A DNA stretch of 64,000 bases, taken from Bolinopsis microptera (taxonomy: Eukaryota > Ctenophora > Tentaculata > Lobata > Bolinopsidae). The notes beneath the pieces were generated by a model. It searched no databases. It was not told the DNA's origin and saw only the letters and a list, made by a program, of their open reading frames with translations. How positions within the stretch are numbered: the stretch's first letter is position 1; the number at the start of each line of letters is the position of its first letter. Positions 179 through 61,381 of this stretch are shown piece by piece. The stretch is from positions 310,001 to 374,000 of the forward strand of contig NC_087081.1 of the NCBI RefSeq assembly GCF_026151205.1. Reading direction: 5' to 3'. The position numbers were made by a program, and so were the translations under genes.

Positions 179-7039
<6,861 letters not shown>

Positions 7040-39750: not shown

Positions 39751-42700
39751 ATGTCACTGTGGAAGTTGTTTGAAGGGGCCAGGTACTGTGGAGGTGTGTG
39801 TGAACACAGTCTCAAAAGATACAAGAGAATAAGAGATAACAGAGATAAGTTGGTGGAACTGGGTTTTATGACACTCGATGAACCACTGGAATGTTACCGG
39901 ACTAAAGAATGGGAGGAACATACCTCAGCCTACTCACAGTGTACATTTAATTTTCATCCGTTAAACAAATAATGAACTAACAATTAATGAACCTCTCACC
40001 CTCTGAACTTCTGCTCCAACTTTAAGTAGTCACTTCAGAAAGGATACTGTGATAGATCAAATTATTGCCAAATTTTGTGAAATTTGTTTTTGATAAAACA
40101 GTAGTCTCAAAACTCATTTTTCGTATATATTAATCATTATCTCAAATCGCAGATAAAACATTGCTGAATCAGTATGAAGATGGGTTGATAAAACTTGAGG
40201 AGGTTGTTAATATTGATCCCAGAAACCCCGCTGAGAGGTACAGCTCAGACAGTGACAAAGACAGTCCTGTAGTCAATAAGAAGAAGAAATCTCCCAACAA
40301 AAAGAAGAAGTCCCAGAAAGGTAAACATAAGAATGGAAGAGTTGAGACTAAAAAGATAAAAGTAGAACAACTGGATTGTGTGGAATGTGTAAGACAAGTT
40401 AATCAGCCTGAAGAAGCTGAAGCTCCTGAAGTAGAGGAACTAGAGATGTTCCTACACTCAGAACCTGAATCTGTACCAGCATTACAAGATCTACTTGTCA
40501 ACAAGAATCTAGCTTCTCACCTCGGAGAAGGTCCTGTAGATGTGTGTAAACTGATTGCAGAAAACCCTGAGTTTACACATGAAATATGTGAGGCTAACAT
40601 AGACTCTCTTATGTCTGATGAGGAGTTCTATAAAATTACTTGTGAGACTTATCCTGGTGGCTGGGAGAAATTCCTGGAGGACATGTTAGTTACATTATAT
40701 CTTCTTATTTAATTTGATTTAATAGCTTGAATCTTGATCATAATCGTGTTTTAGAACTTTTGTTCGTGTTTCTTTTTGCATAAATATTTGTCAGATTCTC
40801 AATGATGTTTTGTTTTTGAACTAAACAATGTTATGATATTATATGTTTAATGGGTACTACTTTACAGGGAGAATGAAGAGTCTTCAGATGAGGAAATAGA
40901 TAGAATTGAGCTGCCCCCTGACCTCTATAATGAACTTATGTCTGACAAGAGTAATGATGTACCTGACGATGATGAGGAACAGTATAAGTTTGGTAGAATA
41001 AACGAGGACCAGGCAGATACTTGTCTTGATCGAGCACTTGAGTTGTATGATAACTATCACAACATGACTCAGGACGAGTTAGTTTTTACTTTTGATACTT
41101 TGTTGTCTTGCACATAAATATACATTTAATTGCTTCTCCTAACCACTGCATAGTATATATTTCGTAATTGTAATTGATTGCATGTTGCTAGTGCATTTTA
41201 AATATGACTTACATGTTAATTGTTTATCCCGCAGGTATAACGAGAAAGTGAAGGAGGTGCTCAAAGATATGGATAGAATTACTGTTCTAGATAATGATGG
41301 CGACCATACCAAAGCGAGTACTAACAAAAGTAACATACCACAAAGCAAAGAATATGCCACAACAACACCTGAACCGAATGACAACTTACCCTCTTGTAGC
41401 GGTACACACAACGATACTGAACGTAGTGACATGGTAACTCCAGATAAAAGTAGCAGTACTTATCATAAGAGTGAAACAGACAATGTGAGAATTGATAACA
41501 CATCTGGTGTAACAACAGAATCTAATACCAGCTCCAGCTCTGTAACACAAACAAAGAAACTCCCCACCATACTCAGTAACAGAGAAGTGTACGAGAATAT
41601 TGACAATATTCCCCGTCCTTCTTATTGGTTACCTGAGTCAGAACCTGACCCTGAGAAGAAAGAAGAAGAGATAGATGATTTTGAGTATCTAGGAATGTTG
41701 GATGATGGTTATCTACTGAGCTTGTTTGACGAAGATAAAGAATCAGAAGAGTTTCCAAACATTACACAGACACAGAACAGTGTTCCTACAGAAACCACTG
41801 CTGAGAGAGATAACATTCAGGAAGAATTGTCCAAGACAGAACTTGAAGCAGCTGCAGGAAAAGCTTCTAAAAATAGACGTAGTAATCCTTCTAGAGTTGC
41901 TAAAGAGGGGGTTACATACCGTGATGATAACGATAATCTGGAGGAGGTGTTACAGTCTGAATATTGTAAGTTACAATGTAGACGGGAGTTAACTTAAATT
42001 TGTTTATCAATACTATATGGTATTTTTTGTTATGTATCAGCAACTACTTACTTTACTTTGTAGGGTTTCATAGAATCCTCTATCGGGCCATCGAAAAAGT
42101 CGACCCCCCGGACAGTGTAGAAACTGTTTTATCACCACTCCAATCAAGCAAGGAGTTTCCATTCCGACGGCTGTATCCTGGAGCTGGAGGCTCGTCCGGA
42201 AATGACTTCACAAAGTTCGTTAAAACCTGTTTTGAATTGCATAGGATCCTCGATGGTGTGCATATGTGTTGGGATTACATTCCATAATCGAGGTCCAGTG
42301 ACTGCAAATGAGTTGTCGTGTAGTGCTTGATTACGTTGACTGCTGGACTTAGCTATACTGGGCACAACTGCTTGAACTAAAATTCAAGTCTGAATTATAA
42401 TAATCCGTCAGAATCAGATGTTCAAAAGAATCTTTGCTTAAATTAAATAGTTATGTTACTGTTACTTTTACTGTAATAATTCGGTGGATTCTTTTATAAA
42501 TGATGTTTTCAATGGAATGCTTCTGTTTTCAGTTTGTTGGCAGTGTAAAGATTATGTGAGGGGAGAATGTGAACTACATGGTCCTTTACTCCCCTGTTTA
42601 GAAGATATCAGCCAACCTGGAACCAAGAAGACTGTAAACTTCCCAGTTCCTAGTTGTATTGAAATCAAAGAATCCGCAATTCCCAGGGCTGGAGATGGAG

Positions 42701-44382
42701 CTTTTGCGTCTCAGTTTATTGAACCAGGAAGTATATTGGGTAAGTCACGTGATTTGCTGGGATCAACTTTTACTTCTTTTTTTGGTGTCCACTGTCCCTT
42801 TCTCCAGACAGCAAGTCTATAAATGTTTTGTACCCTAAAGTGGGTTGTTCTGATTTATCTATTTTATCAGGTAACTACAAGGGAAAAGTCATATCAGAAA
42901 AGGAGTACAAGAAGTTAGAGTCTTCAGATAAAGAGAGTGGATATGCGTGGAGAGCTGTTAGTCAGGACGGTGATGTTATTTACCTAGATGGGGCTAGTCA
43001 CAGGGCTAGCAACTGGTTACGGTTTCTTAACTGTGCTCGGGGTCAATGTGAAGAGAACGTCCTTGTTAGAAATATCCCAGGTAAAATTGAGTGCACATAT
43101 GCGCCAGTTTTCTACGTTTTTACTTATCTATTTACATGAGTTGTGAATATTTCATACCCAAGTATGTTGGGCAGAATCGTTATAAACCTGCAACTTACCA
43201 TCCACAGATTAAATAAGCTGTTTTTTACTTAGGTGTATTCTGGTGATGAAATAACATTGGTTTAGTTAATGACTATTAGTATAAATAAATATTTGTATCG
43301 TTGTGCAATGCCTTCTATCATGGAATAATTATTCTAGGTGGAATACAGTATTATTCGTATAAACCAATTGGGCTGGGAGAGGAATTACTAGTTTTCTACG
43401 GAGAGGACTATTTTGAAGAGTTAGGGTATTCGTTGCAGACTGATGTTGAAAATGGTAAGAAAAATTCTATAGTGACAAATAGTCGTAAATTAAATGGTCA
43501 CATCGAAGATTATCTTTATTTCAAGATATTGCTGGACAGGTCATCACTTTATTTCAGTAATCTTCCATTATTACAGGTCAGCAATATCATTGCACTGCAA
43601 CTGGTTGTCTTAAGCTGTTTAAGACACAACAAGAACTGGAGACACACACATGTGGGAAGACTCGAGGAGTATCAGGAAAAGAGAAAGTACACAAGTGTGC
43701 CACGTGTGGGAAGATGTTTGGTTGGAGGAGTCACTTAACTGCACACATCAGAACAGTACACGATAAGGTAGCGAGACTGAGCTGTCCTTACTGTAAATAT
43801 AGGACTGATCACCAACCTCACCTCACACGTCACATGTTAACTCACAATGGGGACAAACAGTACAAGTGTACACACTGTGACTATACTGCTATTACGAAGC
43901 AGAATCTCACTGCTCACATCTACAATAACCACACTAACAAGACATACAGGTGTCGGTACAAGCAGTGTGGTGTTAAGAAACCTTCTCAACAGGAACTATA
44001 TGATCATATCAGCACAGAGCATCCACTACAACAATACAGATGTGATGTGTGTCCGATGTCTTATAACAGAGCAGATAATCTTGAATACCACAAGCGAACA
44101 CATGGTGATCGTGAGCTAGAATCACAACACGAGTGTAAGTACTGTGGAAAACTGTTTTTAGAATCAGCTCATCTGAAGAGACATGCTCTGACACACACTG
44201 GAGAGAGACCACACAAGTGTAGTGTGTGTGGCAAGGGCTTTACTCAGAACAGTAATTTAACTAGACACATGAGGACACACACAGGGGAGAAACCCTACTC
44301 CTGTTCTTATTGTGATAGGAGATTCAGTGAAAGTGGTGACAGAAATAAACACGAAATTACTTGCAAGAATAAACCCTGTTGA
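39751..44382 (+). CDS. PRDM9-like: PRDM9-like histone methyltransferase, copy A (KRAB-like/SET/C2H2), 8 exons, 1000 residues
   Basis: Exons: 39751-39940, 40153-40684, 40868-41077, 41235-41965, 42533-42739, 42871-43080, 43338-43454 and 43577-44382. Phases agree and the sum is 3003 nt. Residues 1-63 are KRAB/SSX-like ([17 protein letters not shown]). Residues 64-240 hold a Lys-rich NLS and the sumoylation-type IKVE. The 240-554 linker is acidic and Ser-rich. From 554: a zinc knuckle ([20 protein letters not shown]) and PR/SET domain ([40 protein letters not shown]) to about 732, then one C2HC-like and eight C2H2 fingers. Family role: H3K4/H3K36 trimethylation at finger-bound DNA to place meiotic breaks in the nucleus. 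Intron 4 carries a LINE fragment. Donor of intron 1 is GTACAT; introns 2 and 3 use GTTAGT. Orthology rather than convergence is inferred. Confidence 0.9.
42060..42370 (-). mobile_element. LINE 3' fragment in intron 4 of copy A
   Basis: A roughly 300-bp segment absent from the same intron of B, C and D. On the minus strand it reads SSSQRNQALHDNSFAVTGPR, LWNVIPTHMHTIEDPMQFK, a typical C-terminal end of LINE ORF2 (...GPRLWN.LP...). It is a severely 5'-truncated insertion that arose after the array duplicated, or was lost from other copies by conversion. Exact ends are uncertain. Confidence 0.75.
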
Positions 44383-44493
44383 AGAAATTGTTATTGGTAG
44401 TTTTCTTGTAGTTTGACGAATTACTTTATGTTTATTGCTTATTGGACTATATTTTCTTCTATGTAATGTTATTTTATAATTCTGAACTGGTGG

Positions 44494-45839
44494 TTCTTCC
44501 TAAGAGGCTGGATGTTGGAATGGAGTGTCTTCTTAGGGAAAATCAGTGTGGGTTCAGACGGAACCGCTCATGAATTGATCAGATTTATTCCATCCGCACC
44601 ATTATTCACAACTGCATTGAGTTTAACATTCCACTTTATGTTAATTTCATTGATTTTAAGGCAGCATTTGATTCCATCAGAAGAGAGTTTATTTGGTCAA
44701 GCATGAGACACTATGGACTTCCTGAGAAATATGTTAGAATCTTTCAGGCATTCTTCAATGGAACCATGAGTGCTGTCAGGGTTAATGGTGAAATGTCTGA
44801 TTGGTTCTCTGTTAATTCGGGCACTGGACAGGGTGATATCCAGGGCCCTCCTGTATTTAATTTCTGTCTGAACTTTGGAATCTTTTTGGCCGAGGTTCAC
44901 AAGGCAATCAGTCATGGTGCTGTACTGCAAAAGGAACTAAAGGGTGCAGATGAAAAAGTTATCATGGATAGTGACTACGCTGATGATCTGGCAGTGATGG
45001 ACAATACTGAAGAAGGGCTGCAAGAGTCCACTGATCTTATAGCTCATTACACCTCTTATGCTGGGTTGAAGATCAACGCTAAAAAGACACAATGCATGGC
45101 GATCAGCAAGTGTGCGTCCCAGCGACCTTACACCGAAAGAGACAGTATGAAGCTAACAGTGGAGGGAGAACCTGTTGAACAGGTCAGCAACTTTGTTTAT
45201 CTTGGTGCCAACATCAGTGGGGATGGTACCATTGACCGAGATCTTGACATCAGGATCCAGCGTGCTAATGGTGCGTTCCATCAGCTTTGGAAGATATGGA
45301 ACAGTCGAACTATAAGAACGCCCACCAAGATCCGTATCTACAAGGCTGCTGTTATTACTATTCTGTTATATGGAGCTGAAGTGTGGAACACAACAAAGAA
45401 GCAGATGAAACGGTTTGAGGTCTTCCATCTGACCTCCCTGAGAAGAATCTTGAAGATAAAGTGGTTCTTCCATGTCTCCAATGAAGAAGTTCTCAGGCGT
45501 GCTGGAATTAAGTCTATCGAAACTTTCATCGGTGCGGCTAGACTAAGGTGGTACGGACATGTTGTCAGAATGCCAGAAACGCGGTTCCCCAATTTCTTAC
45601 TGGATTGGAAACCAAACTATGGAAAGAGACTGAGAGGACGACCCCGCAAAGGCTGGATGGCCTGTGTACTCGAGGATGCGGCTGAATTTACAGGTGTCGA
45701 TAACATCAGCAGAGATGCAGTAAAACAGTTGGCTCTAAAGCGAGTGGAATGGAGGAACATGTTACGCCGTAGAAGAGATGTGTGTGATGCAGGCCACTCC
45801 AACGACTAGGAGGAGACCTCTTCATGTAGCATGTATGTA
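44494..45839 (+). mobile_element. 5'-truncated non-LTR retrotransposon between copies A and B, 10-bp target duplication
   Basis: Flanked by GAACTGGTGG at 44484-44493 and 45840-45849; the uninterrupted site is visible after copy C (near 57985). It encodes an RT from within the palm: QCGFRRNRS (then an in-frame TGA), VNFIDFKAAFDSIRREFIW, SGTGQGDIQGPPVFNFCLNF, the active site SDYADDLAVM, GLKINAKKTQCMAIS, SNFVYLGANISGDGT, and the C-terminal LRWYGHVVRMPETRF and RLRGRPRKGW. Long open frame 44703-45809. The 3' end is CATGTAGCATGTATGTA rather than poly(A), as in RTE-like elements. Clade assignment is tentative. Confidence 0.88.
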
Positions 45840-45849
45840 GAACTGGTGG

Positions 45850-45998
45850 AGTTTTCCAACTGATGTTCAAACTAATATTGTCAAATAACTTTGAACCAAC
45901 ATTTGATTAAGATTTAAATTTAAGTTATATTTATTATATCTCTGTTGTAAACTAACTGTTGCTTCCAACTAAATCTAGTTTGTAATATTTAGAAGATA
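45850..45998 (+). promoter_or_regulatory. Conserved upstream segment with AG acceptor just before the start codon (copy B)
   Basis: The block TTTAAATTTAAGTTATATTTA ... AACTAACTGTTGCTTCCAAC, ending TTTGTAATATTTAG a few bases before ATG, is conserved before all four copies (also 39606-39750, 53488-53633, 58006-58151). TTTGTAATATTTAG looks like a 3' splice site, so the first coding exon may follow a 5' UTR exon or receive a spliced leader. Confidence 0.4.
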
Positions 45999-48900
45999 AT
46001 GTCACTGTGGAAGTTGTTTGAAGGGGCCAGGTACTGTGGAGGTGTGTGTGAAAACAGTCTCAAAAGATACAAGAGAATAAGAGATAACAGAGATAAGTTG
46101 GTTGAACTGGGTTTTATGACACTAGATGAACCACTGGAATGTTACCGGACTAAAGAATGGGAGGAACATACCTCAGCCTACTCACAGTGTAAATTTAATT
46201 TTCATCTGTTAAACAAATAATGAACTAACAATTAATGAACCTCTCAACATCTGAACTTCTGCTCCAACTTCAAATAGGCTACTGTGATTGATCAAATTAT
46301 TGCACGATTTTGTGAAATTAGTATTTTGACACAGTAGTATTAAATCGGTAGTGTCAAAACTCATTTCCGTATAAAATAACCATTATCTCATATCGCAGAT
46401 GAAATATTGCTGAATCAGTATGAAGATGGGTTAATAAAACTTGAGGAGGTTGTTAATATTGATCCCAGAAACCCCGCTGAGAGGTACAGCTCAGACAGTG
46501 ACAAAGACAGTCCTGTAGTCAATACGAAGAAGAAATCTCCCAACAAAAAGAAGAAGTCCCAGAAAGGTAAACATAAGAATGGAAGAGTTGAGACTAAAAA
46601 GATAAAAGTAGAACAGCTAGATTGTATGGAATGTGTAAGACAAGTTAATCAGCCTGAAGAAGCTGAAGCTCCTGAAGTAGAGGAACTAGAGATGTTCCTA
46701 CACTCAGAACCTGACTCTGTACCAGCATTACAAGATCTACTTGTCAACAAGAATCTAGCATCTCACCTCGGAGAAGGTCCTGTAGATGTGTGTAAACTGA
46801 TTGCAGAAAACCCTGAGTTTACACATGAAATATGTGAGGCTAACATAGACCCTCTTATGTCTGATGAGGAGTTCTATAAAATTACTTGTGAGACTTATCC
46901 TGGTGGCTGGGAGAAATTCCTGGAGGACATGTTAGTTACATTATATCTTCTTATTTAATTTGATTTAATAGCTTGAATCTTGATCATAATCGTGTTTTAG
47001 AACTTTTGCTCGTGTTTCTTTTTTGCATAAATATTAGTCAGATTCTCAATGATGTTTTGTTTTTGAACTAAACAATGTTATGATATTATATATTTAATGG
47101 GTACTGCTTTACAGGGAGAATGAAGAGTCCTCAGATGAGGAGATAGATAGAATTGAGCTGCCCCCTGACCTCTATAATGAACTTATGTCAGACAAGAGTA
47201 ATGATGTACCTGACGATGACGAGGAACAGTATAAGTTTGGTAGAATAAACAAGGACCAGGCAGATACTTGTCTTGATCGAGCACTTGAGTTGTATGATAA
47301 CTATCACAACATGACTCAGGACGAGTTAGTTTTTACTTTTGGTACTTTGATGTCTTACACATAAATATACATTTAATTGCTTCTCGTAACCACTGCATAG
47401 TATATATTTCGTAATTGTAATTGATTGCATGTTGCTAGTGCATTTTAAATACGACTAACATGTTAATTGTTTATTCCGCAGGTATAACAAAAAAGTGAAG
47501 GAGGTGCTCAAAGATATGGATAGAATTACTGTTCTAGATAATGAGGGCGACCATACCAAAGCGAGTACTAACAAAAGTAACATACCACAAAGCAAAGAAT
47601 ATGCCAGAACAACACCTGAACCTAATGACAACTTACCCTCTTGTAGCGGTACACACAACGATACTGAACGTAGTGACATGGTAACTCCAGATAAAAGTAG
47701 CAGTAGTTATCATAAGAGTGAAACAGACAATGTGAGAATTGATAACACATCTGGTGTAACAACAGAGTCTAATACCAGCTACAGCTCTGTAACACAAACA
47801 AAGAAACTCCCCACCATACTCAGTAACAGAGAAGTGTACGAGAATATTGACAATATTCCCCGTCCTTCTTATTGGTTACCTGAGTCGGAACCTGACCCTG
47901 AGAAGAAAGAAGAAGAGATAGATGATTTTGAGTATCTAGGAATGTTGGATGATGGTTATCTACTAAGCTTGTTTGACGAAGATAAAGAAACAGAAGAGAT
48001 GCCAAACACTGCACAGACACACATTAGTGTTCCTACAGATACCACTGCTGAGAGAGATAACATTCAGGAAGACTTCTCCAAGACAGAACTTGAAGCAGCT
48101 GCAGGAAAAGCTTCTAAAAATAGACGTAGTAACCCTCCTAGAGTTGCTAAAGAGGGGGTTACATACCGTGATGATAACGATAATCTGGAGGAGGTGTTAC
48201 AGTCTGAATATTGTAAGTTACTACGAAGATAGGAGTTTACTTATTGTTTATCAATACTATATGGTATTTATAGTCATTTATCTGTACAACTAAAATTTAA
48301 CTTCAAACTTCAAACTATCTGAATAATAATTAGTCCGTCAAAATCAAATGTTTTTTTTTCTGAATCTATACTTGAATTTGTTGGTAACGGTACTGTTACT
48401 TTAACTGTAATAATTTGGTAGATACTTTTATAAATGACATTTTCAATGGAATGCTTCTGTTTCCAGTTTGTTGGCAGTGTAAAGATTATGTGAGGGGAGA
48501 ATGTGAACTACATGGTCCTTTACTCCCCTGTTTAGAGGATATCAGCCAACCAGGAACTAAGAAGACTGCAAACTTTCCAGTTCCTAGTTGTATTGAAATC
48601 AAAGAATCCACAATTCCCAGGGCTGGAGATGGAGCTTTTGCGTCTCAGTTTATTGAATCAGGAAGTATATTGGGTAAGTCACGTGTTTTGCTGGGATCAG
48701 CTTTTACTTCTTTTTTGGTGTCCACTGTGAGAAGGTGCCGAACTTCCGCAGGTTCAATGCGGCTGCACATGCTGATTTCAAAAGAATTTTTGAGAGCGAA
48801 ACGTGGAGTGAGGTGCACAGAGAAACTAATGCGAATGACCAGTATGACAAATTCAGTGAAATCTATTCCAAACATTACGATCAAGCATATCCTGAAAAGA

Positions 48901-51900
48901 AACCTGGACCTAGACGTAAAAATGAACGGCACGACTCAAAACCCTGGATCTTACCGTGGCTAGAAGATGCATGTGCCCGTAGACAACGTCTCTACCACGA
49001 TAAGATAAAAGTTCCCAGCGTGACAAATATTGCTGCGTACAAAAAAATTAATAAATTTTGTAACAAACATATAAATTTGGCCAAAACCAAGTACTACAAA
49101 AACTTTTTTGAGGAGTACCGCGACAACTCCAAAAAGCAGTGGCAACTTATTAATAGTCTCCTGGGTAGAAATGTCAGGCACTCTGGGCCTATTAAAATAA
49201 AGGATGAATGTGGAAACATACTCAGCAGCCATTCCGATGTATCGGCTAAATTTAATGAGTATTTTTCCAACATTGCAAGCAACATAAAGTCCCAGATAAG
49301 TGCTAGGCAAACTTTCGATCCAGGAGGTTTTGAAGAATTCTTACAGGACGGACGTAGGACGGATATAGGTACTAGCAGTATTGAGTTAAGACCTGTTACG
49401 CCCTCTGAAATCAGTAAAGTAGTAAAAAAATTCAAGAACAAAGCGACACTTGACACAAAAATTGAACCAATGAAGCTTGCAAGCTTAGATACGAAATTCA
49501 CAAAAACGTTGGCCGTAATCATAAATTCTTCCTTTACTGAGGGAATATTTCCAAATGCTCTAAAATCGGCACGAGTTGTTCCGATACACAAAGGTGGCTC
49601 TAAAACAGAAGTTACTAATTACAGACCAATCTCTTTGCTAAGCTCTTTCTCGAAAATTTACGAAAAACTTATGCATAGTCGAGTTCTTGAATTTTTAGAC
49701 TTCAATGGATCACTTTTTGAAAGCCAGTACGGTTTTAGGCCTGGCATGTCATGTGAACACGCTTTACTTAATGCTCAAAATAGTATTCTACACTCTCTCA
49801 ACAGTAAGCAAATTGCTGTGCTGCTTCTTCTTGACTACTCTAAAGCTTTTGACGTTATTGAACATCCTATACTACTAAAAAAACTGGAACATTACGGCAT
49901 TAAAGGTTCAGCACTTAAATGGTTCGAGTCCTATCTGAGCGGCCGCCACCAATTCGTGACTGTCGGTGGAGAAGACTCGAGGCCCAAAGAAATCCAGTTT
50001 GGAGTACCCCAGGGGTCGATTTTGGGACCATTACTCTTTGTGATCTATATCAACGACCTTCCAAACATCACAAATTTAGCTAAGTTTATACTGTACGCAG
50101 ACGATGCGAATATCATAGTTACTGGTTACACCGAGCAAGAGGTTCAGTTCAAACTAAATCAAATAACCTCGCTCCTGATCAAATGGGTTGATAGCAACGG
50201 ACTTGCTCTCAATCTCAAAAAAACTCACTTTATGGTATTTAGCAATCATAGAACGACAACCCTTTCTAACATTAATGTTTCCATAGCTGGAGTAGTGATA
50301 GATCAAGTGACTGAGGCACGTTTCCTCGGAGTAATAATCGATGATAAATTAACGTGGAGCAAACACATACATGCCGTTAGGGCCAGGATGAATAGATACA
50401 TGGGTATCATGTACAAAATTAAACGGCACTTACCGTTAAAAGTCAGGCTTCAAATTTATCACAGCTTTGTTCAATCCCACCTCAATTTCTGCTCCCTCGT
50501 CTGGGGTTTCGCAGCCAAATCACACATTGAGTCACTATTCACAAAACAGAAACAAGGTGTGAGAATGGTTATGCCAGGTTACGTCAACTATTTCTACAAG
50601 GACGGCCAATTGCCTGCACACACGAGGGATAGCTTTAAAGAGTATGGAATTCTCACTATTCATGGAATAATCGTGAAGAACGCACTTATATTAATGCACA
50701 GGATGAAATACTTCCCTGAAACAGTGCCAAAATCAATCAAAGGCCTTTTTCCAAGTAATATCCCGACAGTTAACTCCAGCCATGAGACTAGCTCTGACTG
50801 GCTTCTTACATACGGTAGTAACACTTTTAGACAATCAGTATTTTTTAAAGGTCCACTGCTTGCCATCACTGAAACAAACTTAAATATAACTTGTCTTCCC
50901 AGCTTATTTTCAATAAACATTTACAAGTCTAATGCAAAACGTGTGCTATTGGAACACCAATCAAGAGGCAACAACGAGGAAAGCTGGCAAACCTTTTTAC
51001 TGAATAATATTCCAGGTTTAAGGAAATCTCAACGGTCACAAAATCACACACCCCACAACATAACTTAGTATTAGTAAACTATCTAAACAACATGAGGCAC
51101 TCACTCAATAAACTTCTTAGTTACAAAAGCACTTCAAAACTAATAATTACCGACCACTTTTGAAATCGGAAAATTTTCACTGCCAGACCTGCTACTAGTT
51201 TACTGATAGTACTCCTGGCCATTGCTCAATTAAAGCCTTATCAGCACAACACGCACAATCACATATCATCAACGTAGCTGATCTCAACGCATCATAATAA
51301 CAACCACGCGCACACACACCCACTTACCACTACACAGTACCACACAGAGCCCTGCAGCAATCAATTCAAATATCGCCTAGCTGATTTTGATAGAATAACA
51401 TCGTGATCCAGCGTGATGAATTGTTTTAATCTTAATTGAAGTTAAACGGCTGCACCCCTGACTTTTTAACTAAAAGATAAGAGACGTATATATTAGGACA
51501 TTTGTAATCTGATAAAATTTAAAGTTTTGGTGTGTGAATTAAAGCTTGGTGTGAGAATTAGTGTGGAAATAAAGAGATTCATTTTATTACATCATATATC
51601 TTAATTAAGTGACAGTAAGTATTATTATTTTAACTACAGCTTATATTATTTCAGTTAGTATTGACATGAATGTTACGATTTCAGTTTATTTATTATATAT
51701 TATATTGTCAATAAACCGGTTTCAAAGCCCTTAAGGGTGGCCCTCGGGTCTTTAAAACAAAAACTGTCCCTTTCTCCAGACAGCAAGTCTATAAATGTTT
51801 TGTACCCTAAAGTGGGTTGTTCTGATTTATCTATTTTATCAGGTAACTACAAGGGAAAAGTCGTATCAGAAAAGGAGTACAAGAAGTTAGAGTCTTCAGA

Positions 51901-53365
51901 TAAAGAGAGTGGATATGCGTGGAGAGCTGTTAGTCAGGACGGGGATGTTATCTATCTAGATGGGGCTAGTCACAGGGCTAGCAACTGGTTACGGTTTCTT
52001 AACTGTGCTCGGGGTCAATGTGAAGAGAACGTCCTTATTAGAAATATCCCAGGTAAAATTGGGTGCACATATGCGCCAGTTTTCTACGTTTTTACTTATC
52101 TATTTACATGAGTTGTGAATATTTCATACCCAAGTATGTTGGGCAGAATCGTTATAAACCTGCAACTTACCATCCACAGATTAAATAAGCTGTATTTTAC
52201 TTAGGTGTATTCTGGTGATGAAATAACATTGGTTTAGTTTTAAATGACTATTAGTATAAATAAATATTTGTATCGTTGTGCAATGCCTTCTATCATGAAA
52301 TAATTATTCTAGGTGGAATACAGTATTATTCATATAAACCAATTGGGTTGGGAGAGGAATTACTAGTTTTCTACGGAGAGGACTATTTCGAAGAGTTAGG
52401 GTATTCGTTGCAGACTGATATTGAAAATGGTGAGAACAATCTCTAACTTTAGTAGTACGATTCATCCCTTAAAATGCAAAATTAAGTGAACACGAGACTA
52501 TTTTTATTATATTGCTGGACAATTCCTCACTTTATTTCAGTAATCTTCCATAAATACAGGTCAGCAATATCATTGCACTGCAACTGGTTGTCTTAAGCTG
52601 TTTAAGACACAACAAGAACTGGAGACACACACATGTGGGAAAACTCGAGGAGTATCAGGAAAAGAGAAAGTACACAAGTGTGCCACCTGTGGGAAGATGT
52701 TTACTCGAAGAGCCAATTTAACTATACACATCAGGATAGTACACGATAAGGTAGCGAGACTCAGCTGTCCCTACTGTAAATATAGGACTGATCACCAACA
52801 CGCTCTCACATGTCACATGTTAACTCACAATGGGGACAAACAGTACAAGTGTAAACACTGTGACTATACTGCTATTACGAAGCAGAGTCTCACTTCTCAC
52901 ATCTACAATAACCACACTAACAAGACATACAAGTGTCGGTACAAGCAGTGTGGTGTTAAGAAACCTTCTGAACAGGAACTATATGATCATATCAGCACAG
53001 AGCATCCACTACAAAAATACCGATGTGATGTGTGTCCAATGTCTTTTAACACAGCAGGACAACTTGGATACCACAGGCGAACACATGGTGATCGTGAGCT
53101 AGAATCACAACACGAGTGTAAGTACTGTGGAAAACTGTTTTTAAAATCAGATAATCTGAAGAAACATGCTCTGACACACACTGGAGAGAAACCACACAAG
53201 TGTAGTGTGTGTGGTAAAGGGTTTAATACGAACAGTAGTTTAAATAGACACATGAGGACACACACAGGGGAGAAACCCTACTCCTGTTCTTACTGTGATA
53301 AGAGGTTTTGTGATAGTAATAACAAAAACAAACATGAAATTTTTTGCAAGAATAGACCTTGTTGA
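45999..53365 (+). CDS. PRDM9-like: PRDM9-like histone methyltransferase, copy B, 8 exons, 1000 residues, LINE in intron 5
   Basis: Exons: 45999-46188, 46399-46930, 47115-47324, 47482-48212, 48467-48673, 51843-52052, 52313-52429 and 52560-53365. All frames are intact. Outside the fingers it differs from A by scattered substitutions only. SET tyrosines are kept (ESGYAW, QYYSY, FYGEDY). Fingers differ from A and C at helix positions, e.g. finger 1 RRANLTI, finger 2 HQHALTC, finger 6 KSDNLKK, finger 7 TNSSLNR and the last finger DSNNKNK. Intron 5 is 3.17 kb because of a retroelement at 48729-51762; the exons on either side still have good splice sites, so it may remain expressed. One difference in exon 5 is Glu-Ser for Glu-Pro (FIESGS). 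Confidence 0.9.
48729..51068 (+). CDS. LINE reverse transcriptase frame (N-terminally truncated) in copy B intron
   Basis: Continuous open frame of about 779 codons starting at the insertion junction (EKVPNFRRFNAAAHADFKRI). The first 170 residues are the EN-RT linker, then RT fingers-palm-thumb with FADD-type site LYADDANI. It has no native start because the 5' end was lost on insertion. No stops or frameshifts, so the insertion is young. Confidence 0.85.
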   Translation, partial: EKVPNFRRFNAAAHADFKRIFESETWSEVHRETNANDQYDKFSEIYSKHYDQAYPEKKPGPRRKNERHDSKPWILPWLEDACARRQRLYHDKIKVPSVTNIAAYKKINKFCNKHINLAKTKYYKNFFEEYRDNSKKQWQLINSLLGRNVRHSGPIKIKDECGNILSSHSDVSAKFNEYFSNIASNIKSQISARQTFDPGGFEEFLQDGRRTDIGTSSIELRPVTPSEISKVVKKFKNKATLDTKIEPMKLASLDTKFTKTLAVIINSSFTEGIFPNALKSARVVPIHKGGSKTEVTNYRPISLLSSFSKIYEKLMHSRVLEFLDFNGSLFESQYGFRPGMSCEHALLNAQNSILHSLNSKQIAVLLLLDYSKAFDVIEHPILLKKLEHYGIKGSALKWFESYLSGRHQFVTVGGEDSRPKEIQFGVPQGSILGPLLFVIYINDLPNITNLAKFILYADDANIIVTGYTEQEVQFKLNQITSLLIKWVDSNGLALNLKKTHFMVFSNHRTTTLSNINVSIAGVVIDQVTEARFLGVIIDDKLTWSKHIHAVRARMNRYMGIMYKIKRHLPLKVRLQIYHSFVQSHLNFCSLVWGFAAKSHIESLFTKQKQGVRMVMPGYVNYFYKDGQLPAHTRDSFKEYGILTIHGIIVKNALILMHRMKYFPETVPKSIKGLFPSNIPTVNSSHETSSDWLLTYGSNTFRQSVFFKGPLLAITETNLNITCLPSLFSINIYKSNAKRVLLEHQSRGNNEESWQTFLLNNIPGLRKSQRSQNHTPHNIT
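48729..51762 (+). mobile_element. 5'-truncated CR1/Jockey-type LINE in intron 5 of copy B
   Basis: Inserted between ACTGT (48724-48728) and ACTGT (51763-51767), a 5-bp target duplication; copies A and C show the empty site CCACTGTCCCTTTC. The open frame to 51068 lacks the endonuclease but has the EN-RT linker (NEYFSNIASNIKS) and all RT motifs: NYRPISLLSSFSKIYEKL, QYGFRPGMSCEHAL, LLLDYSKAFDVIEHP, GVPQGSILGPLLFVIYINDL, the active site LYADDANII and RFLGVIIDDKLTWSKH. A roughly 690-bp 3' UTR ends with an AATAAA and an A-rich tail (TTTAAAACAAAA). Transcribed in the same direction as the host gene. Confidence 0.9.
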
Positions 53366-53633
53366 GAATATTGTTATTGAGTTATTGGTAACTTTCTGTT
53401 ATAGTTTGTCGAATTACTTAATGCTAACTGGACTATTTCTTCTGTCAAAGTTATTAAATAATTCTTAATTGTATTTGATTTGTCATTTTCCAACTGATGT
53501 TCAAACTAATATTGTCAGAATAACTTTAAACCAACATTTGATTAAGATTTAAATTTAAGTTATATTCATTATATCTCTGTTGTAAACTAACTGTTGCTTC
53601 CAACTAAATCTAGTTTGTAATATTTAGAACATA

Positions 53634-56600
53634 ATGTCACTGTGGAAGTTGTTTGAAGGGGCCAGGTACTGTGGAGGTGTGTGTGAACACAGTCTCAAAA
53701 GATACAAGAGAATAAGAGACAACAGAGATAAGTTGGTGGAACTGGGTTTTATGACACTAGATGAACCACTGGAATGTTACCGGACTAAAGAATGGGAGGA
53801 ACATACCTCAGCCTACTCACAGTGTAAGTTCAATTTTCTTCCGTTAAACAAATAATGAACTAACAATTAATGAACCTCTCAACCTCTGAACTTCTGCTCC
53901 AACTTCAAATAGGCTACTGTGATTGATCAAATTATTGCACGATTTTGTGAAATTAGTCTTTTGACACGGTAGTGTCAAAACTCATTTCCGTATAAAATAA
54001 CCATTATCTCACATCGCAGATGAAATATTGCTGAATCAGTATGAAGGTGGGTTGATAAAACTTGAGGAGGTTGTTAATATTGATCCCAGAAACCCCGCTG
54101 AGAGGTACAGCTCAGACAGTGACAAAGACAGTCCTGTAGTCAATAAGAAGAAGAAATCTCCCAACAAAAAAAAGTCCCAGAAAGGTAAACATAAGAATGG
54201 AAGAGTTGAGACTAAAAAGATAAAAGTAGAACAGCTAGATTGTGTGGAATGTGTAAGACAAGTTAATCAGCCTGAAGAAGCTGAAGCTCCTGAAGTAGAG
54301 GAACTAGAGATGTTCCTACACTCAGAACCTGAGTCTGTACCAGCATTACAAGATCTACTTGTCAACAAGAATCTAGCTTCTCACCTCGGAGAAGGTCCTG
54401 TAGATGTGTGTAAACTGATTGCAGAAAACCCTGAGTTTACACATGAAATATGTGAGGCTAACATAGACTCTCTTATGTCTGATGAGGAGTTCTATAAAAT
54501 TACTTGTGAGACTTATCCTGGTGGCTGGGAGAAATTCCTGGAGGACATGTTAGTTACATTATATCTTCTTATTTAATTTGATTTAATAGCTTGAATCTTG
54601 ATCATAATCGTGTTTTAGAACTTTTGCTCGTGTTTCTTTTTGCATAAATATTTGTCAGATTCTCAATGATGTTTTGTTTTTGAACTAAACAATGTTATGA
54701 TATTATATGTTTAATGGGTACTACTTTACAGGGAGAATGAAGAGTCCTCAGATGAGGAGATAGATAGAATTGAGCTGCCTCCTGACCTCTATAATGAACT
54801 TATGTCTGACAAGAGTAATGATGTACCTGACGATGATGAGGAACAGTATAAGTTTGGTAGAATAAACAAGGACCAGGCAGATACTTGTCTTGATCGAGCA
54901 CTTGAGTTGTATGATAACTATCACAACATGACGCAGGACGAGTTAGTTTTTACTTTTGATACTTTGTTCTCTTACACATAAAAATTCTATGGCTTCTCGT
55001 AACCACTGCATTATATATATTTTGTAATTGTAGTTGATTGCATGTTGCTGGTGAATTTTAAATATGACTAACATGTTAATTGTTTATCCTGCAGGTATAA
55101 CAAAAAAGTGAAGGAGGTGCTCAAAGATATGGATAGAATTACTGTTCTAGATAATGATGTCGACCATACCAAATCGAGTACTAACAAAAGTAACATACCA
55201 CAAAGCAAAGAATATGCCAGAACAACACCTGAACCTAATGACAACTTACCCTCTTGTAGCGGTACACACAACGATACTGAACGTAGTGACATGGTAACTC
55301 CAGATAAAAGTAGCAGTAGTTATCATAAGAGTGAAACAGACAATGTGATAATTGATAACACATCTGGTGTAACAACAGAGTCTGATACCAGCTCCAGCTC
55401 TGTAACACAAACAAAGAAACTCCCCACCATACTTAGTAACAGAGAAGTGTACGAGAATATTGACAATATTCCCCGTCCTTCTTATTGGTTACCTGAGTCA
55501 GAACCTGACTCTGAGAAGAAAGAAGAAGAGATAGATGATTTTGAGTATCTAGGAATGTTGGACGATGGTTATCTACTGAGCTTGTTTGACGAAGATAAAG
55601 AATCAGAAGAGATGCCAAACACTGCACAGACACACATTAGTGTTCCTACAGAAATGACTGCTGCGAGAGATAACATTCAGGAAGACTTCTCCAAGACAGA
55701 AGTTGAAGCAGCTGCAGGAAAAGCTTCTAAAAATAGACGTAGTAACCCTCCTAGAGTTGCTAAAGAGGGGGTTACATACTGTGATGATAACGATAATCTG
55801 GAGGAGGTGTTACAGTCTGAATATTGTAAGTTACAATACGTAGAGTTTACTTATTGTTTACTATATGGTATTTTTTGTTTGGTAGCAACAACTGAAATTA
55901 AAGTTGAAACTATCAGAATTATAATGATCCCTCAGAATTTTACTAAATCTTTGCTTAAATTAAATAGTAATGTTACTGTTTCTTTTACTGTAATAATTTG
56001 GTGGATACTTCTATAAATGATGTTTTCAATGAAATTCTGTTTTTCAGTTTGCTGGCAGTGTAAAGATTATGTGAGGGGAGAATGTGAACTACATGGTCCT
56101 TTACTCCCCTGTTTAGAAGATATCAGCCAACCGGGAACTAAGAAGACTGCAAACTTTCCAGTACCTAGTTGTATTGAAATCAAAGAATCCACAATTCCCA
56201 GGGCTGGAGATGGAGCTTTTGCGTCTCAGTTTATTGAACCAGGAAGTATATTGGGTAAGTCACGTGATTTGCTGGGATCAGCTTTTACTTCTTTTTTTGG
56301 TGTCCACTGTCCCTTTCTCCAGACAGCAAGTCTATAAATGTTTTGTACCCTAAAGTGAGTTGTTCTGATTTATCTATTTTATCAGGTAACTACAAGGGAA
56401 AAGTCATATCAGAAAAGGAGTACAAGAAGTTAGAGACTTCAGATAAAGAGAGTGGATATGCGTGGCGTGCTGTTAGCCAGGACGGTGATGTTATATACCT
56501 CGATGGGGCTAGTCACAGGGCTAGCAACTGGTTACGGTTTCTTAACTGTGCTCGGGGTCAATGTGAAGAGAACGTCCTTGTTAGAAATATCCCAGGTAAA

Positions 56601-57877
56601 ATTGGGTGCACATATGCACCAGTTTTCTACGTTTTTACTTATCTATTTACGTGAGTTGTGAATATTTCATACCCAAGTATGTTGGGCAGAATCGTTATAA
56701 ACCTGCAACTTACCATCCACAGATTAAATAAGCTGTATTTTACTTAGGTGTATTCTGGTGATGAAATAACATTGGTTTAGTTAATGACTATTAGTATAAA
56801 TAAATATTTGTATCGTTGTGCAATACCTTCTATCATGGAATAATTATTCTAGGTGGAATACAGTATTATTCGTATAAACCAATTGGGTTGGGAGAGGAAT
56901 TACTAGTTTTCTACGGAGAGGACTATTTCGAAGAGTTAGGGTATTCGTTGCAGACTGATATTGAAAATGGTGAGAACAATCTCTAACTTTAGTAGTACGA
57001 TTTATCCCTTAAAATGCAAAATTAATTTCCACAATTCCTCACTTAATTTCAGTAATCTTCCATTAATACAGGTCAACAATATCATTGCACTGCAACTGGT
57101 TGTCTTAAGCTGTTTAAGACACAACAAGAACTGGAGACACACACATGTGGGAAGACTCGAGGAGTATCAGGCAAAGAGAAAGTACACAAGTGTGACACGT
57201 GTAGGAAGATGTTTGCTCAGAGGAGTCACTTAACTGCACACATCAGAACAGTACACGATAAGGTAGCGAGACACAGCTGTCCTTACTGTAAATATAAAAC
57301 TGATTACCAACAAGTTCTTACCAGTCACATGTTAACACACACGGGGGACAAACAGTACAAGTGTACACACTGTGACTATACTGCTATTACGAAGCAGAGT
57401 CTCACTCTTCACATCTACAATAACCACACTAACAAGACATACAAGTGTCGGTACAGGCAGTGTGGTGTTAAGAAACCTTCTGAACAGGAACTATATGATC
57501 ATATCAGTACAGAGCACCCACTACAACAATACAGATGTGATGTGTGTCCAATGTCTTTTAACACAGCAGGACAACTTGGATACCACAAGCGAACACATGG
57601 TGATCGTGAGCTAGAATCACAACACGAGTGTAAGTACTGTGGAAAACTGTTTTTACAATCTGGTGATCTGAAGAAACATGCTCTGACACACACTGGAGAA
57701 AGACCACACAAGTGTAGTGTGTGTGGTAAGGGGTTTACTGTTAAGTGTAATTTAACTAGACACATGAGGATACACACAGGGGAGAAACCCTACTCCTGTT
57801 CTTACTGTGATAGGAGGTTTAGTGAAAGTGGTGACAGAAATAAACACGAAATTACTTGCAAGAATAAACCCTGTTGA
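53634..57877 (+). CDS. PRDM9-like: PRDM9-like histone methyltransferase, copy C, 8 exons, 999 residues, no insertions
   Basis: Exons: 53634-53823, 54020-54548, 54732-54941, 55095-55825, 56048-56254, 56386-56595, 56853-56969 and 57072-57877. One Lys codon is missing from the basic run in exon 2. It has the cleanest structure of the four and shows the ancestral unit. Donor of intron 1 is consensus GTAAGT. SET knuckle, catalytic tyrosines and fingers are all present. Fingers: 1 AQRSHLTA, 2 YQQVLTS, 3 TKQSLTL, 5 TAGQLGY (as in B), 6 QSGDLKK, 7 VKCNLTR, last ESGDRNK (as in A). The mosaic of A-like and B-like fingers suggests gene conversion within the array. The stop is followed 274 bp later by the start of copy D. 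Confidence 0.92.
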
Positions 57878-58151
57878 AGAAATTGTTATTGGTATTTGGT
57901 AGTTTTCTTTTAGTTTGACGAATTACTTTATGCTTATTGCTTATTGGACTATATTTTCTTCTATGTAATGTTATTTTATAATTCTGAACTGGTGGAGTTT
58001 TCCAACTGATGTTCAAACTTCAAACTAATATTGTCAAATAACTTTGAACCAACATTTGATTAATATTTAAATTTAAGTTATATTTATTATATCTCTGTTG
58101 TAAACTAACTGTTGCTTCCAACTAAATCTACTTTGTAATATTTAGAACATA

Positions 58152-61100
58152 ATGTCACTGTGGAAGTTGTTTGAAGGGGCCAGGTACTGTGGAGGTGTGT
58201 GTGAACACAGTCTCAAAAGATACAAGAGAATAAGAGACAACAGAGATAAGTTGGTGGAACTGGGTTTTATGACACTAGATGAACCACTGGAATGTTACCG
58301 GACTAAAGAATGGGAGGAACATACCTCAGCCTACTCACAGTGTAAGTTTAATCTTCATCCGTTAAACAAATAATGAACTAACAATTAATCAACCTCTCAA
58401 CCTCTGAACTTCTGCTCCAACTTTAAGTAGTCACTTCAGAAAGGCTACTGTGATAGATCAAATTATTGCCAAATTTTGTTAAATTCGTTTTTGATGACAC
58501 AGTAGTCTCAAAACTCATTTCCGTATAAAATAACCATTATCTCACATCGCAGATGAAACATTGCTGAATCAGTATGAAGATGGGTTGATAAAACTTGAGG
58601 AGGTTGTTAATATTGATCCCAGAAACCCCGCTGAGAGGTACAGCTCAGACAGTGACAAAGACAGTCCTGTAGTCAATAAGAAGAAGAAATCTCCCAACAA
58701 AAAGAAGAAGTCCCAGAAAGGTAAACATAAGAATGGAAGAGTTGAGACTAAAAAGATAAAAGTAGAACAACTGGATTGTATGGAATGTGTAAGACAAGTT
58801 AATCAGCCTGAAGAAGCTGAAGCTCCTGAAGTAGAGGAACTAGAGATGTTCCTACACTCAGAACCTGAGTCTGTACCAGCATTACAAGATCTACTTGTCA
58901 ACAAGAATCTAGCTTCTCACCTCGGAGAAGGTCCTGTAGATGTGTGTAAACTGATTGCAGAAAACCCTGAGTTTACACATGAAATATGTGAGGCTAACAT
59001 AGACTCTCTTATGTCTGATGAGGAGTTCTATAAAATTACTTGTGAGACTTATCCTGGTGGCTGGGAGAAATTCCTGGAGGACATGTTAGTTACATTATAT
59101 CTTCTTATTTAATTTGATTTAATAGCTTGAATCTTGATCATAATCGTGTTTTAGAACTTTTGCTCGTGTTTCTTTTTGTATAAATATTTGTCAGATTCTC
59201 AATGATGTTTTGTTTTTGAACTAAACAATGTTATGATATTATATGTTTAATGGGTACTACTTTACAGGGAGAATGAAGAGTCCTCAGATGAGGAGATAGA
59301 TAGAATTGAGCTGCCTCCTGACCTCTATAATGAACTTATGTCAGACAAGAGTAATGATGTACCTGACGATGATGAGGAACAGTATAAGTTTGGTAGAATA
59401 AACAAGGACCAGGCAGATACCTGTCTTGATCGAGCACTTGAGTTGTATGATAACCATCACAACATGACGCAGGACGAGTTAGTTTTTACTTTTGATACTT
59501 TGTTGTCTAACACATAAAAATTCTATGGCTTCTCGTAACCACTGCATAATATATATTTTGTAATTGTAGTTGATTGCATAGTGCTAGTGCATTTTAAATA
59601 TGCTACATGTTGATTCTTTATCCCGCAGGTATAACGAGAAAGTGAAGGAGGTGCTCAAAGATATGGATAGAATTACTGTTCTAGATAATGATGGCGACCA
59701 TACCAAAGCGAGTACTAACAAAAGTAACATACCACAAAGCAAAGAATATGCCAGAACAACACCTGAACCGAATGAAAACTTACCCTCTTGTAGCGGTACA
59801 CACAACGATACTGAACGTAGTGACATGGTAACTCCAGATAAAAGTAGCAGTAGTTATCATAAGAGTGAAACAGACAATGTGAGAATTGATAACACATCTG
59901 GTGTAACCACAGAGTCTGATACCAGCTCCAGCTCTGTAACACAAACAAAGAAACTCCCCACCATACTCAGTAACAGAGAAGTGTACGAGAATATTGACAA
60001 TATTCCCCGTCCTTCTTATTGGTTACCTGAGTCAGAACCTGACTCTGAGAAGAAAGAAGAAGAGATAGATGATTTTGAGTATCTAGGAATGTTGGATGAT
60101 GGTTATCTACTGAGCTTGTTTGACGAAGATAAAGAATCAGAAGAGATGCCAAACACTGCACAGACACACATTAGTGTTCCTACAGAAATGACTGCTGAGA
60201 GAGATAACATTCAGGAAGACTTTTCCAAGACAGAACTTGAAGCAGCTGCAGGAAAAGCTTCTAAAAATAGACGTAGTAACCCTCCTAGAGTTGCTAAAGA
60301 GGGGGTTACATACCGTGATGATAACGATAATCTGGAGGAGGTGTTACAGTCTGAATATTGTAAGTTACTACGAAGATAGGAGTTTACTTATTGTTTATCA
60401 AAACTAGATGGTATTTATAGTCATTTATCTGTACAACTAAAATTTAACTTCAAACTTCAAACTATCTGAATAATAATTAGTCCGTCAAAATCAAATGTTT
60501 TTTCTGAATCTATACTTGAATTTGTTGGTAACGGTACTGTTACTTTTACTGTAATAATTTGGTAGATACTTTTATAAATGACATTTTCAATGAAATGCTT
60601 CTGTTTCCAGTTTGTTGGCAGTGTAAAGATTATGTGAGGGGAGAATGTGAATTACATGGTCCTTTACTCCCCTGTTTAGAAGACATCACCCAACCTGGAA
60701 CTAAGAAGACTGCAAACTTCCCAGTACCTAGTTGTATTGAAATCAAAGAATCCACAATTCCTAGGGCTGGAGATGGAGCTTTTGCGTCTCAGTTTATTGA
60801 ACCAGGAAGTATATTGGGTAGGTCACGTGATGTGGTGAGATCAGACTTTACTCCTTTTTTGGACATTTGGACATTTGGACATTTGGTGTCCACTGTGCCT
60901 TTCACCAGACAACAAATGCAAGAATGTTTTGTATCTTAAAGTGAGTTGTTCTGATTTATCTATTTTATCAGGGAACTACAAGGGAAAAGTCGTATCAGAA
61001 AAAGAGTACAAGAAGTTAGAGTCTTCAGATAAAGAGAGTGGATATGCGTGGAGAGCTGTTAGTCAGGACGGAGATGTTATCTATCTAGATGGGGCAAGTC

Positions 61101-61381
61101 ACAGGGCTAGCAACTGGTTACGGTTTCTTAACTGTGCTCGGGGTCAATGTGAAGAGAACGTTCTTGTAAGAAATATCCCAGGTAAAATGGGGTGTTCTTA
61201 TTCGCCAGTTTTCTACTGCTATGCGTCATTCTTAGTTCTTACTTATCTTACTTACTTACTCTTACTTACTTAGATTCGCTATGTCAACCTGCAACTTACC
61301 ATCCTCGGATTATTAAGCTCTATTGTATTACGATGTATTCTAGTGATAAAATACCCTTTTATCATGGAATAATTCTTCTAG
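58152..61381 (+). CDS. PRDM9-like: PRDM9-like histone methyltransferase, copy D, exons 1-6, interrupted at exon 7
   Basis: Exons: 58152-58341, 58553-59084, 59268-59477, 59629-60359, 60611-60817 and 60972-61181, all open and in phase. Intron 6 is diverged from the other copies and ends ATTCTTCTAG, after which exon 7 should begin. Instead only GTG remains before ATTTGATTTTGATTTG, the reverse complement of a LINE tail. The second half of SET and the zinc fingers are therefore absent from this locus or displaced beyond the LINE, past the window end. As it stands the product would lack the last two catalytic tyrosines and the DNA-binding array. Intron 5 has a triplicated GGACATTT. Confidence 0.88.

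Follow-up and report, generated by a model that had tools for sequence, protein, structure and literature searches.

Expansion of a PRDM9-type gene family in the ctenophore Bolinopsis microptera

Introduction

PRDM9, which in mammals determines the sites of chromosomal recombination, is usually treated as a single gene whose alleles turn over, and the question raised by a 64-kb window of the Bolinopsis microptera genome (the whole stretch of DNA that was analysed, on contig C10) is what several genes of this type might be doing side by side. An earlier note had read the window as a four-copy tandem array of PRDM9-type genes in a probable invertebrate, and on both points the reading has held, since the host is a ctenophore and four copies (c1-c4) lie head-to-tail in the same orientation. 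The window shows part of a lineage-expanded PRDM9-type family.

Some comparable cases have been described. According to one study (PMC11703093), salmonid genomes carry 6-14 Prdm9 paralogues, several of them damaged, with one or two full-length per species; the ctenophore likewise has many paralogues, some damaged, but differs in that 11 of its SET-type genes are intact and carry distinct fingers. Among invertebrates, positions -1, 3 and 6 of the fingers have been reported as positively selected in Prdm9 of Nematostella, and three near-identical sequences of Capitella were left open as alleles or paralogues (both in PMC2779102), whereas the ctenophore family is multi-locus and comes from a chromosome-scale assembly. 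A 2026 review (PMC13186367) includes cnidarians and sponges in the clades that have full-length PRDM9 homologues. Text searches of the literature found no report of a PRDM9-type family in ctenophores.

The tandem array and its genome-wide family

The first copy, c1 (39751-44382, forward strand), consists of eight exons (39751-39940, 40153-40684, 40868-41077, 41235-41965, 42533-42739, 42871-43080, 43338-43454 and 43577-44382) that form a single open frame of 1000 amino acids, with GT/AG at all introns. The same organization of eight exons in a single open frame is found in c2 (45999-53365, forward strand; 1000 amino acids), whose intron 5 measures 3169 bp owing to an insert that contains a reverse-transcriptase frame, and in c3 (53634-57877, forward strand; 999 amino acids). 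These models rest on GT/AG splice sites conserved between the copies, and they bear out both the coordinates and the 999-1000 residues given in the earlier note.

The fourth copy, of which 58152-61384 (forward strand) falls within the window, has intact exons 1-6 (58152-61181), an exon-7 acceptor whose AG ends at 61381, and the first bases of exon 7. Homology ends after a GGTG at 61384, where a retrotransposon insert of ~6.2 kb starts (first part 61385-64000, reverse strand; GGTG on both sides), and exons 7 and 8 pick up again outside the window, at C10:377578-378690, after the second GGTG. The cut at exon 7 noted earlier is thus real and is due to a retrotransposon sitting in the start of that exon; because the last two exons resume past the insert, c4 is interrupted rather than truncated. 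Two more copies, c5 and c6, lie beyond the window end and bring the array on C10 to six.

The family was previously taken to be local, and here its extent had been understated: at least 19 SET-type loci occur genome-wide (11 with intact frames, 8 of the 19 damaged or partial), spread over C10, C13, C5, C2, C3 and C129, with further relics on C8 and C11. It could be argued that allelic haplotypes or collapsed repeats have been set out as tandem genes, particularly as the public assembly derives from a diploid animal (PMC10232365). Such an artefact is scarcely credible, since the SET-type copies reside on six contigs with different flanks and insertions, the introns of c1-c3 range from 67 to 99.5% identical (i.e., differ by 0.5-33%), and finger signatures are distinct in 12 of 12 copies. 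The copies, with their distinct finger signatures, are most probably tandem genes, as the earlier note had it.

Domain architecture and relationship to PRDM7/9

The protein of every intact gene begins with a KRAB-like N-terminus and a long linker, followed by a zinc knuckle, a PR/SET methyltransferase domain and eight C2H2 fingers. In c1, the KRAB-like segment occupies exon 1 (39751-39940, forward strand), the knuckle and PR/SET exons 5-7 (42533-43454, forward strand), and the fingers exon 8 (43577-44382, forward strand), a single terminal exon. The PRDM9 domain order asserted in the earlier note is confirmed by Pfam and PDB matches from the knuckle onward, and is weak at the N-terminus. Pfam recognizes the PR/SET domain of c1 as PRDM2_PR (1e-23) and SET (7e-10), and the best PDB match of its exons 5-7 is PRDM9 (4c1q; 1.6e-19), with the phmmer alignment beginning at the zinc knuckle. 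Over the knuckle and PR/SET, c1 scores 73.6 bits against PRDM9 and 58.7 against PRDM12, and the margin is smaller for the divergent copy g2 (72.3 vs 64.6 bits).

The catalytic domain is likewise conserved. The knuckle motif CWQC-x7-C-x2-H is present in 16 of 17 copies, the exception (d1) lacking that part of exon 5, and the three catalytic tyrosines of PRDM9 are kept in all 17 copies with PR/SET exons. Their positions were read from an alignment to the PRDM9 structure sequence; the numbers Y341 and Y357 were taken from papers, and the remaining tyrosine is Y276. With pN/pS of 0.08-0.12 in its exons, the PR/SET domain is, to judge by substitution patterns, under purifying selection.

The N-terminal half is a different matter. 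The exon 1 segment is nearly unchanged among all copies having it, including copies without SET, and in c1 is weakly similar to the KRAB of human PRDM9; among 2000 shuffles, 6 (c1), 1 (g2) and 25 (the SET-less copy B1) scored at least as high in local alignment to that sequence. Profile searches proposed earlier matched SET and C2H2, and returned neither a Pfam match to KRAB or SSXRD in the family proteins nor a KRAB chain in the PDB. For SSXRD, 1584 of 2000 shuffles scored as high without the knuckle and 263 of 2000 with it; this motif is short and, according to PMC5519329, weakly predicted even in some fish.

A SET phylogeny, also proposed earlier, does not resolve the placement. In the best tree of nine PR/SET sequences, the ctenophore rows group with PRDM9 and PRDM11 (support 63/72) on a long branch (1.93), and none of five alternative groupings is rejected (p-AU of 0.166 for PRDM9 alone, 0.291 for PRDM12, 0.128 for PRDM14, 0.207 for PRDM1 and 0.159 for PRDM11). 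Strict orthology to PRDM9 is accordingly not proven by these comparisons, given the weak KRAB, the undetectable SSXRD and a SET tree without resolution. Prdm genes of animals were reportedly surveyed in 2016. A ctenophore-specific PRDM subfamily that gained a PRDM9-like architecture independently would account for the unresolved tree and its long branch, for the missing SSXRD, and for an exon 2-4 region that is conserved between copies without a Pfam match. We regard this origin as unlikely, in view of the PDB preference for PRDM9 over knuckle and PR/SET, the shared domain order and the single finger exon.

Diversification at the DNA contacts

Comparison of the finger exon between paralogues, rather than alleles, shows change concentrated at the DNA-contact codons. 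Every pair among 12 paralogues shows differences at 14-25 of the 32 contact positions, and at least four different residues are found at 20 of 32 contact codons versus 2 of 235 other codons (Fisher 7e-20); in this same exon pN is 0.361 at contact codons and 0.040 at the others, and the C2H2 ligand columns are unchanged across the 12 copies. In all 66 pairs, which are not independent of one another, pN at the contacts is higher than pS over all codons, and the same holds for all six disjoint pairs. As read from sequence, this pattern is the one that diversifying selection for DNA specificity leaves in PRDM9. In vertebrates, according to Baker 2017 (PMC5519329), rapidly evolving fingers occur together with the complete architecture, save perhaps in one case.

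The signal is uneven along the array. Taken alone, contact codons have a pN/pS of 1.73 overall, and by finger the values are 0.87, 0.95, 3.68, 0.40 and 1.96 for fingers 1-5, undefined for finger 6 (no synonymous change), and 5.07 and 14.38 for fingers 7 and 8. Fingers 1, 2 and 4 thus stay below 1, which counts against a role in specifying recombination sites, and finger 4 (SQED) hardly varies. Array growth is shown by the extra finger in exon 8 of c4, whose duplicate differs at 2 of 84 nt and is the sole recent 84-nt duplicate. The 28 finger pairs of c1 are 29-56% identical in nucleotides, unlike the near-identical 84-bp repeats of mammals, and finger spacing is irregular (28-31 residues).

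One could also view the genes as ordinary paralogous transcription factors, subfunctionalised after duplication and without a germline role; other PRDM proteins are developmental regulators. Contact change above the synonymous rate in every pair would be unusual for such regulators, and makes this very unlikely.

SET-less copies carried by DNA transposons

Five further copies lack PR/SET; all have fingers, four keep the N-terminus and four are intact. They are located on C1, C4, C5, C12 and C3. All five reside in or at terminal-inverted-repeat DNA transposons, as revealed by the right border that they share. A 26-base transposon end has 149 forward and 140 reverse matches in the genome and 0 in the control; pairs of these ends enclose B1 and B3 among 100 places listed, and one end was seen at each of the other three copies. 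A search for inverted repeats of at least 14 bases within two 9-kb blocks did not show the ends, and the pattern of terminus plus inner part within 10 bases gave two matches only. The carrier resembles PIF/Harbinger-type transposons in its terminal inverted repeats and an HTH_Tnp_4 fragment (4e-6; 26.8 bits, where the cut-off is 27; two frames were searched), and differs in that the transposase is seen only as a fragment and five carrier copies bear a host-derived PRDM9-type gene.

KRAB zinc-finger proteins (KRAB-ZFPs) have been proposed to derive from a PRDM9 ancestor. The SET-less copies resemble, in the makeup of their predicted proteins, an independent birth of KRAB-zinc-finger-like genes: like tetrapod KRAB-ZFPs, they combine a KRAB-like N-terminus (4 of 5) with a C2H2 array and no SET, but they would be of independent origin, are transposon-borne and are not recognized by Pfam as KRAB. 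It is conceivable, if rather unlikely, that the whole family serves germline genome defence, with fingers that track new mobile elements as those of tetrapod KRAB-ZFPs do and a SET domain that marks or silences the targets. The shape of the SET-less forms, the several reverse-transcriptase frames in and around the array, and the multi-copy, tandem and dispersed organization with its high turnover (the damaged loci and the relics) would all fit, but the strong conservation of PR/SET, which retains the residues that make PRDM9 an active methyltransferase, would not. Moreover, the copies most like KRAB-ZFPs diverge less at the contacts: pN is 0.12-0.14 in six pairs between two SET-less lineages (non-contact pS 0.07-0.11), which are very few independent comparisons, versus 0.24-0.43 (mean 0.33) in 25 equally distant clade-A pairs.

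A possible multi-locus system and its significance

The family has in common with vertebrate PRDM9 a KRAB-like segment followed by knuckle, PR/SET and a C2H2 array confined to the last exon, the three catalytic tyrosines and the fast change at finger contacts; it differs in its number of loci within one genome, its weak KRAB and undetectable SSXRD, and its fingers, which are not near-identical. Whether these genes are multi-locus, sequence-directed histone methyltransferases that probably specify recombination sites, and possibly control mobile DNA, is in our judgment evenly balanced. Each paralogue would bind its own DNA motif and methylate histone H3 there. With the whole set acting in the germline, sites of many kinds would be marked together, and the choice of where to recombine would rest with several loci instead of with the alleles of a single gene. 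New specificities could come from duplication and exchange between copies while old target motifs erode. The meiotic role is one that we infer, and control of mobile DNA in the manner of KRAB-ZFPs would be expected to leave the same finger pattern, which counts against recombination as the main function. Of a ZCWPW-like reader the genome gives no more than a hint, a further point on that side.

The fuller proposal is more tentative and falls somewhat short of an even chance: polygenic specification of recombination sites by ~11 PRDM9-type methyltransferases of differing specificity, renewed by duplication and inter-locus exchange, together with a SET-less lineage that, as DNA-transposon cargo, would be re-running the proposed founding step of the KRAB-ZFPs. 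Many intact, differently targeted copies would allow the hotspot paradox to be tested directly, by asking whether a multi-locus set slows motif erosion, and the transposon-borne, SET-less copies may make the proposed transition from PRDM9 to KRAB-ZFP observable in a second lineage.

A tandem array with a transposon-like insert

The tandem array of PRDM9-type genes is real, larger than the earlier note had it, and unusual. In an assembly of 264.65 Mb and 232 contigs, the window covers C10:310001-374000, where four copies of one gene type stand head-to-tail, as first described. With exon limits placed via splice sites common to the copies, c1 (39751-44382; 1000 residues), c2 (45999-53365; 1000 residues), and c3 (53634-57877; 999 residues) each have one open frame after splicing, in agreement with the 999-1000 residues originally given. 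Beyond the fourth copy, c4, which starts at 58152, lie two more complete ones, c5 (C10:378962-383194) and c6 (C10:383429-387706).

The break reported in exon 7 of c4 is indeed there, but the gene is interrupted by an insert, not truncated. Exons 1-6 are kept, the exon-7 acceptor lies at 61381, and after a GGTG the insert begins; it is ~6.2 kb long and contains a reverse-transcriptase frame in minus orientation. Exon 7 picks up at C10:377578 behind a second GGTG, and exon 8, ending at C10:378690, encodes nine fingers, including a recently duplicated pair (2 of 84 nt different). Because the insert separates the acceptor from the remaining exon 7, c4 is probably non-functional as a SET-finger gene.

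Reverse-transcriptase frames occur in the window at 26417-28240(-), 33070-34734(+), 44574-45806(+), 48678-51065(+), and 61949-64000(-), the one at 33070 being Penelope-like by eye, with a weak RVT_1 match below cut-off. A minisatellite of 60-bp units (37392-38567; 19.5 copies) lies ~1.2 kb upstream of the array, and another, at 7070-7891, has 19.1 copies of a 43-bp unit (97% matches); a rhodopsin-type GPCR frame is present at 4353-5345(-) (7tm_1, 1.9e-19).

Protein architecture and affinity to PRDM9

The PR/SET domain, zinc knuckle, and C2H2 array of the original description were all recovered: Pfam recognised the first, the knuckle motif is found in 16 of 17 copies, and a single terminal exon encodes the fingers. 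The best PDB match for the c1 PR/SET domain is PRDM9 (4c1q; 1.6e-19), followed by PRDM12 (5.8e-15) and PRDM11 (6.2e-14); for g2, a divergent SET-type locus, the lead of PRDM9 over PRDM12 is small (4.1e-19 vs 9.3e-17). The PRDM9 structure match spans the zinc knuckle, which in the match list is common to PRDM9 and PRDM11 only, and the three catalytic tyrosines of PRDM9 are present in 17 of 17 copies.

The N-terminus may be KRAB-like, as proposed. Exon 1, in which six representatives agree at 49 of 63 columns, aligns weakly with the human PRDM9 KRAB region (equalled by 6, 1, and 25 of 2000 shuffles for c1, g2, and the SET-less copy B1, respectively), but Pfam and PDB profile searches gave no KRAB match there. 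No SSXRD counterpart was detectable with Pfam or shuffled alignment scores. Separating the KRAB-like exon from the knuckle is a conserved stretch, exons 2-4 (e.g., window 40153-41965), with no Pfam match above cut-off; the SET-less copies retain the exon-2/3 portion of it. In a SET tree of nine sequences, the ctenophore proteins group with PRDM9 and PRDM11 (support 63/72), none of five alternatives being rejected; we therefore use the name PRDM9-type and not PRDM9 orthologue.

For salmonids, 6-14 Prdm9 paralogues are described, of which one or two are full-length (PMC11703093). A 2026 review places cnidarians and sponges among the clades that have full-length homologues (PMC13186367); the PRDM9 passages of PMC11577847 deal with mammals. 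A literature text search, with subscription papers largely outside its reach, found no report of PRDM9 in ctenophores.

A family spread across the genome

What had been taken for a local family is multi-copy, but spread genome-wide rather than local. A query of the N-terminal 733 residues gave at least 102 matches (61 of 147 candidates scored) and one of the first 240 residues gave 65 (60 of 60 scored), both finding copies on many contigs. Fetching regions and mapping exons yielded at least 19 SET-type loci: c1-c6, b0 and b1 (C10:857-862 kb), k1 and k2 (C10:888-894 kb), d1 and d2 (C10:13.12 Mb), e1 (C10:18.25 Mb), t1 and t2 (C13:14.49 Mb), f1 (C5:22.43 Mb), g2 (C2:13.35 Mb), g3 (C3:12.25 Mb), and g129 (C129). 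The sequence of k2 comprises exons 1-2 alone and that of b0 exons 7-8 alone, and their SET-type class is therefore assigned by similarity. Frames are intact in eleven loci (c1, c2, c3, c5, c6, b1, k1, t1, t2, g2, and g3); c4, b0, k2, d1, d2, e1, f1, and g129 are damaged or partial. Degenerate relics of the family are found at three places on C8 and also on C11, and isolated exon-1 pieces on C12, C6, and C129.

In the same genome, an obelin query gave 55 matches at 25-37% identity, 54 of them without internal stop and many in tandem. Photoprotein-like frames of high mutual similarity form arrays at C5:17012730-17026404, C13:11082451-11094343, C1:21999412-22006929, and C3:3415487-3427366; tandem photoprotein genes are known from luminous ctenophores.

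Selection on the fingers

Judged from sequence comparison, the intact genes join a constrained enzyme part to DNA-reading fingers that are diversifying. Exon 8 was compared among 12 complete sequences of the SET-type group clade A (c1-c6, b0, b1, k1, e1, t1, and t2), damaged loci c4, e1, and b0 included, with one duplicate c4 finger omitted and d1, d2, and f1 excluded for incomplete exon 8. At contact codons (finger positions -1, 2, 3, and 6), nonsynonymous difference (pN) was 0.361 and synonymous difference (pS) 0.209, as against 0.040 and 0.129 at the other 235 codons; in the PR/SET exons, pN/pS was 0.08-0.12. At least four different residues are found at 20 of 32 contact codons vs 2 of 235 others (Fisher 7e-20), both of the latter sitting immediately 5' of a contact position -1. 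Contact pN exceeded all-codon pS in every one of the 66 non-independent pairs and likewise in all 6 disjoint pairs. Pairwise differences between copies affect 14 to 25 of the 32 contacts and all 12 finger signatures are distinct, with zinc ligands unchanged throughout. Inside contact codons, pN/pS is 1.73; three fingers (1, 2, and 4) have ratios under 1, the last of them (SQED) being close to invariant. Synonymous change is also elevated at the contacts, which points to short-stretch replacement besides point mutation.

The same contact-residue pattern has been described in rodent, primate, and Nematostella PRDM9 (Oliver 2009, PMC2779102); in the ctenophore it is seen between paralogues of one genome. 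Intron identity among c1-c3 ranges from 67% to 99.5%, and pS is lower in exons 1-4 (0.03-0.07; 8 to 11 copies, rows of differing length excluded, as was e1 for exon 2) than in exons 5-7 and non-contact exon 8 (0.11-0.13), which together suggest exchange between copies.

SET-less derivatives as putative transposon cargo

Five SET-less loci, the B copies (C1:8.31, C12:8.67, C3:18.72, C4:14.23, and C5:5.70 Mb), consist of exons 2 and 3, the initial 62 codons of exon 4 plus donor, and exon 8, exons 5-7 being absent from all. The four with exon 1 encode intact, 614-residue proteins; exon 1 of the C3 copy was not found by exon mapping or the 240-residue genome search. Homology reaches past the gene (B4-B5, 99.5% over 8.4 kb), the C3 copy sharing just 2.5 kb and smaller pieces, and has a common border in 5 of 5 loci. 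Genome-wide, this border sequence has 149 forward and 140 reverse occurrences (control pattern, 0), and among 100 places listed it often forms inward pairs. Such end pairs flank two of the genes, the one on C1 (pair at 8303705-8318994) and the one on C3 (pair at 18716318-18721716); one end each was seen for the C12, C4, and C5 copies. The window lacks this pattern, as do the other retrieved loci at zero mismatches. One frame of the C1 block has a match to HTH_Tnp_4 (4e-6) slightly below cut-off, and the flank recurs elsewhere, e.g., on C7 at 100%, where family searches list no member. Given the common border, the inward end pairs, the HTH_Tnp_4 match, and the C7 flank, the SET-less derivative seems to be carried by a DNA transposon, tentatively assigned to the PIF/Harbinger type. 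The ends define a terminal-inverted-repeat transposon family (e.g., C1:8303705-8318994), with listed end pairs ~0.17 to 15 kb apart.

In the six pairs that compare the two B lineages, contact pN is 0.12-0.14 and non-contact pN 0.04-0.05, compared with a contact pN of 0.24-0.43 (25 pairs) in clade A at equal synonymous distance; contacts are thus elevated in the B copies as well, though less than in clade A, on few independent comparisons.

Proposed function

On C4 (4978731-4989518), a zf-CW match (at 4978731) and a PWWP match (at 4989420) lie 10.7 kb apart on the same strand, in a genome with 4 and 5 matches to these domains, respectively, and a possible ZCWPW-like reader is hinted at by the pair. 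Each PRDM9-type protein would act on its own DNA motif, methylating H3 there. In germ cells, the positions of double-strand breaks would be set in this way, as they are in mammals and salmonids, with many loci taking part. Alternatively, the targets may be mobile elements, and such a defence would suit the copy number and turnover of the family equally well.
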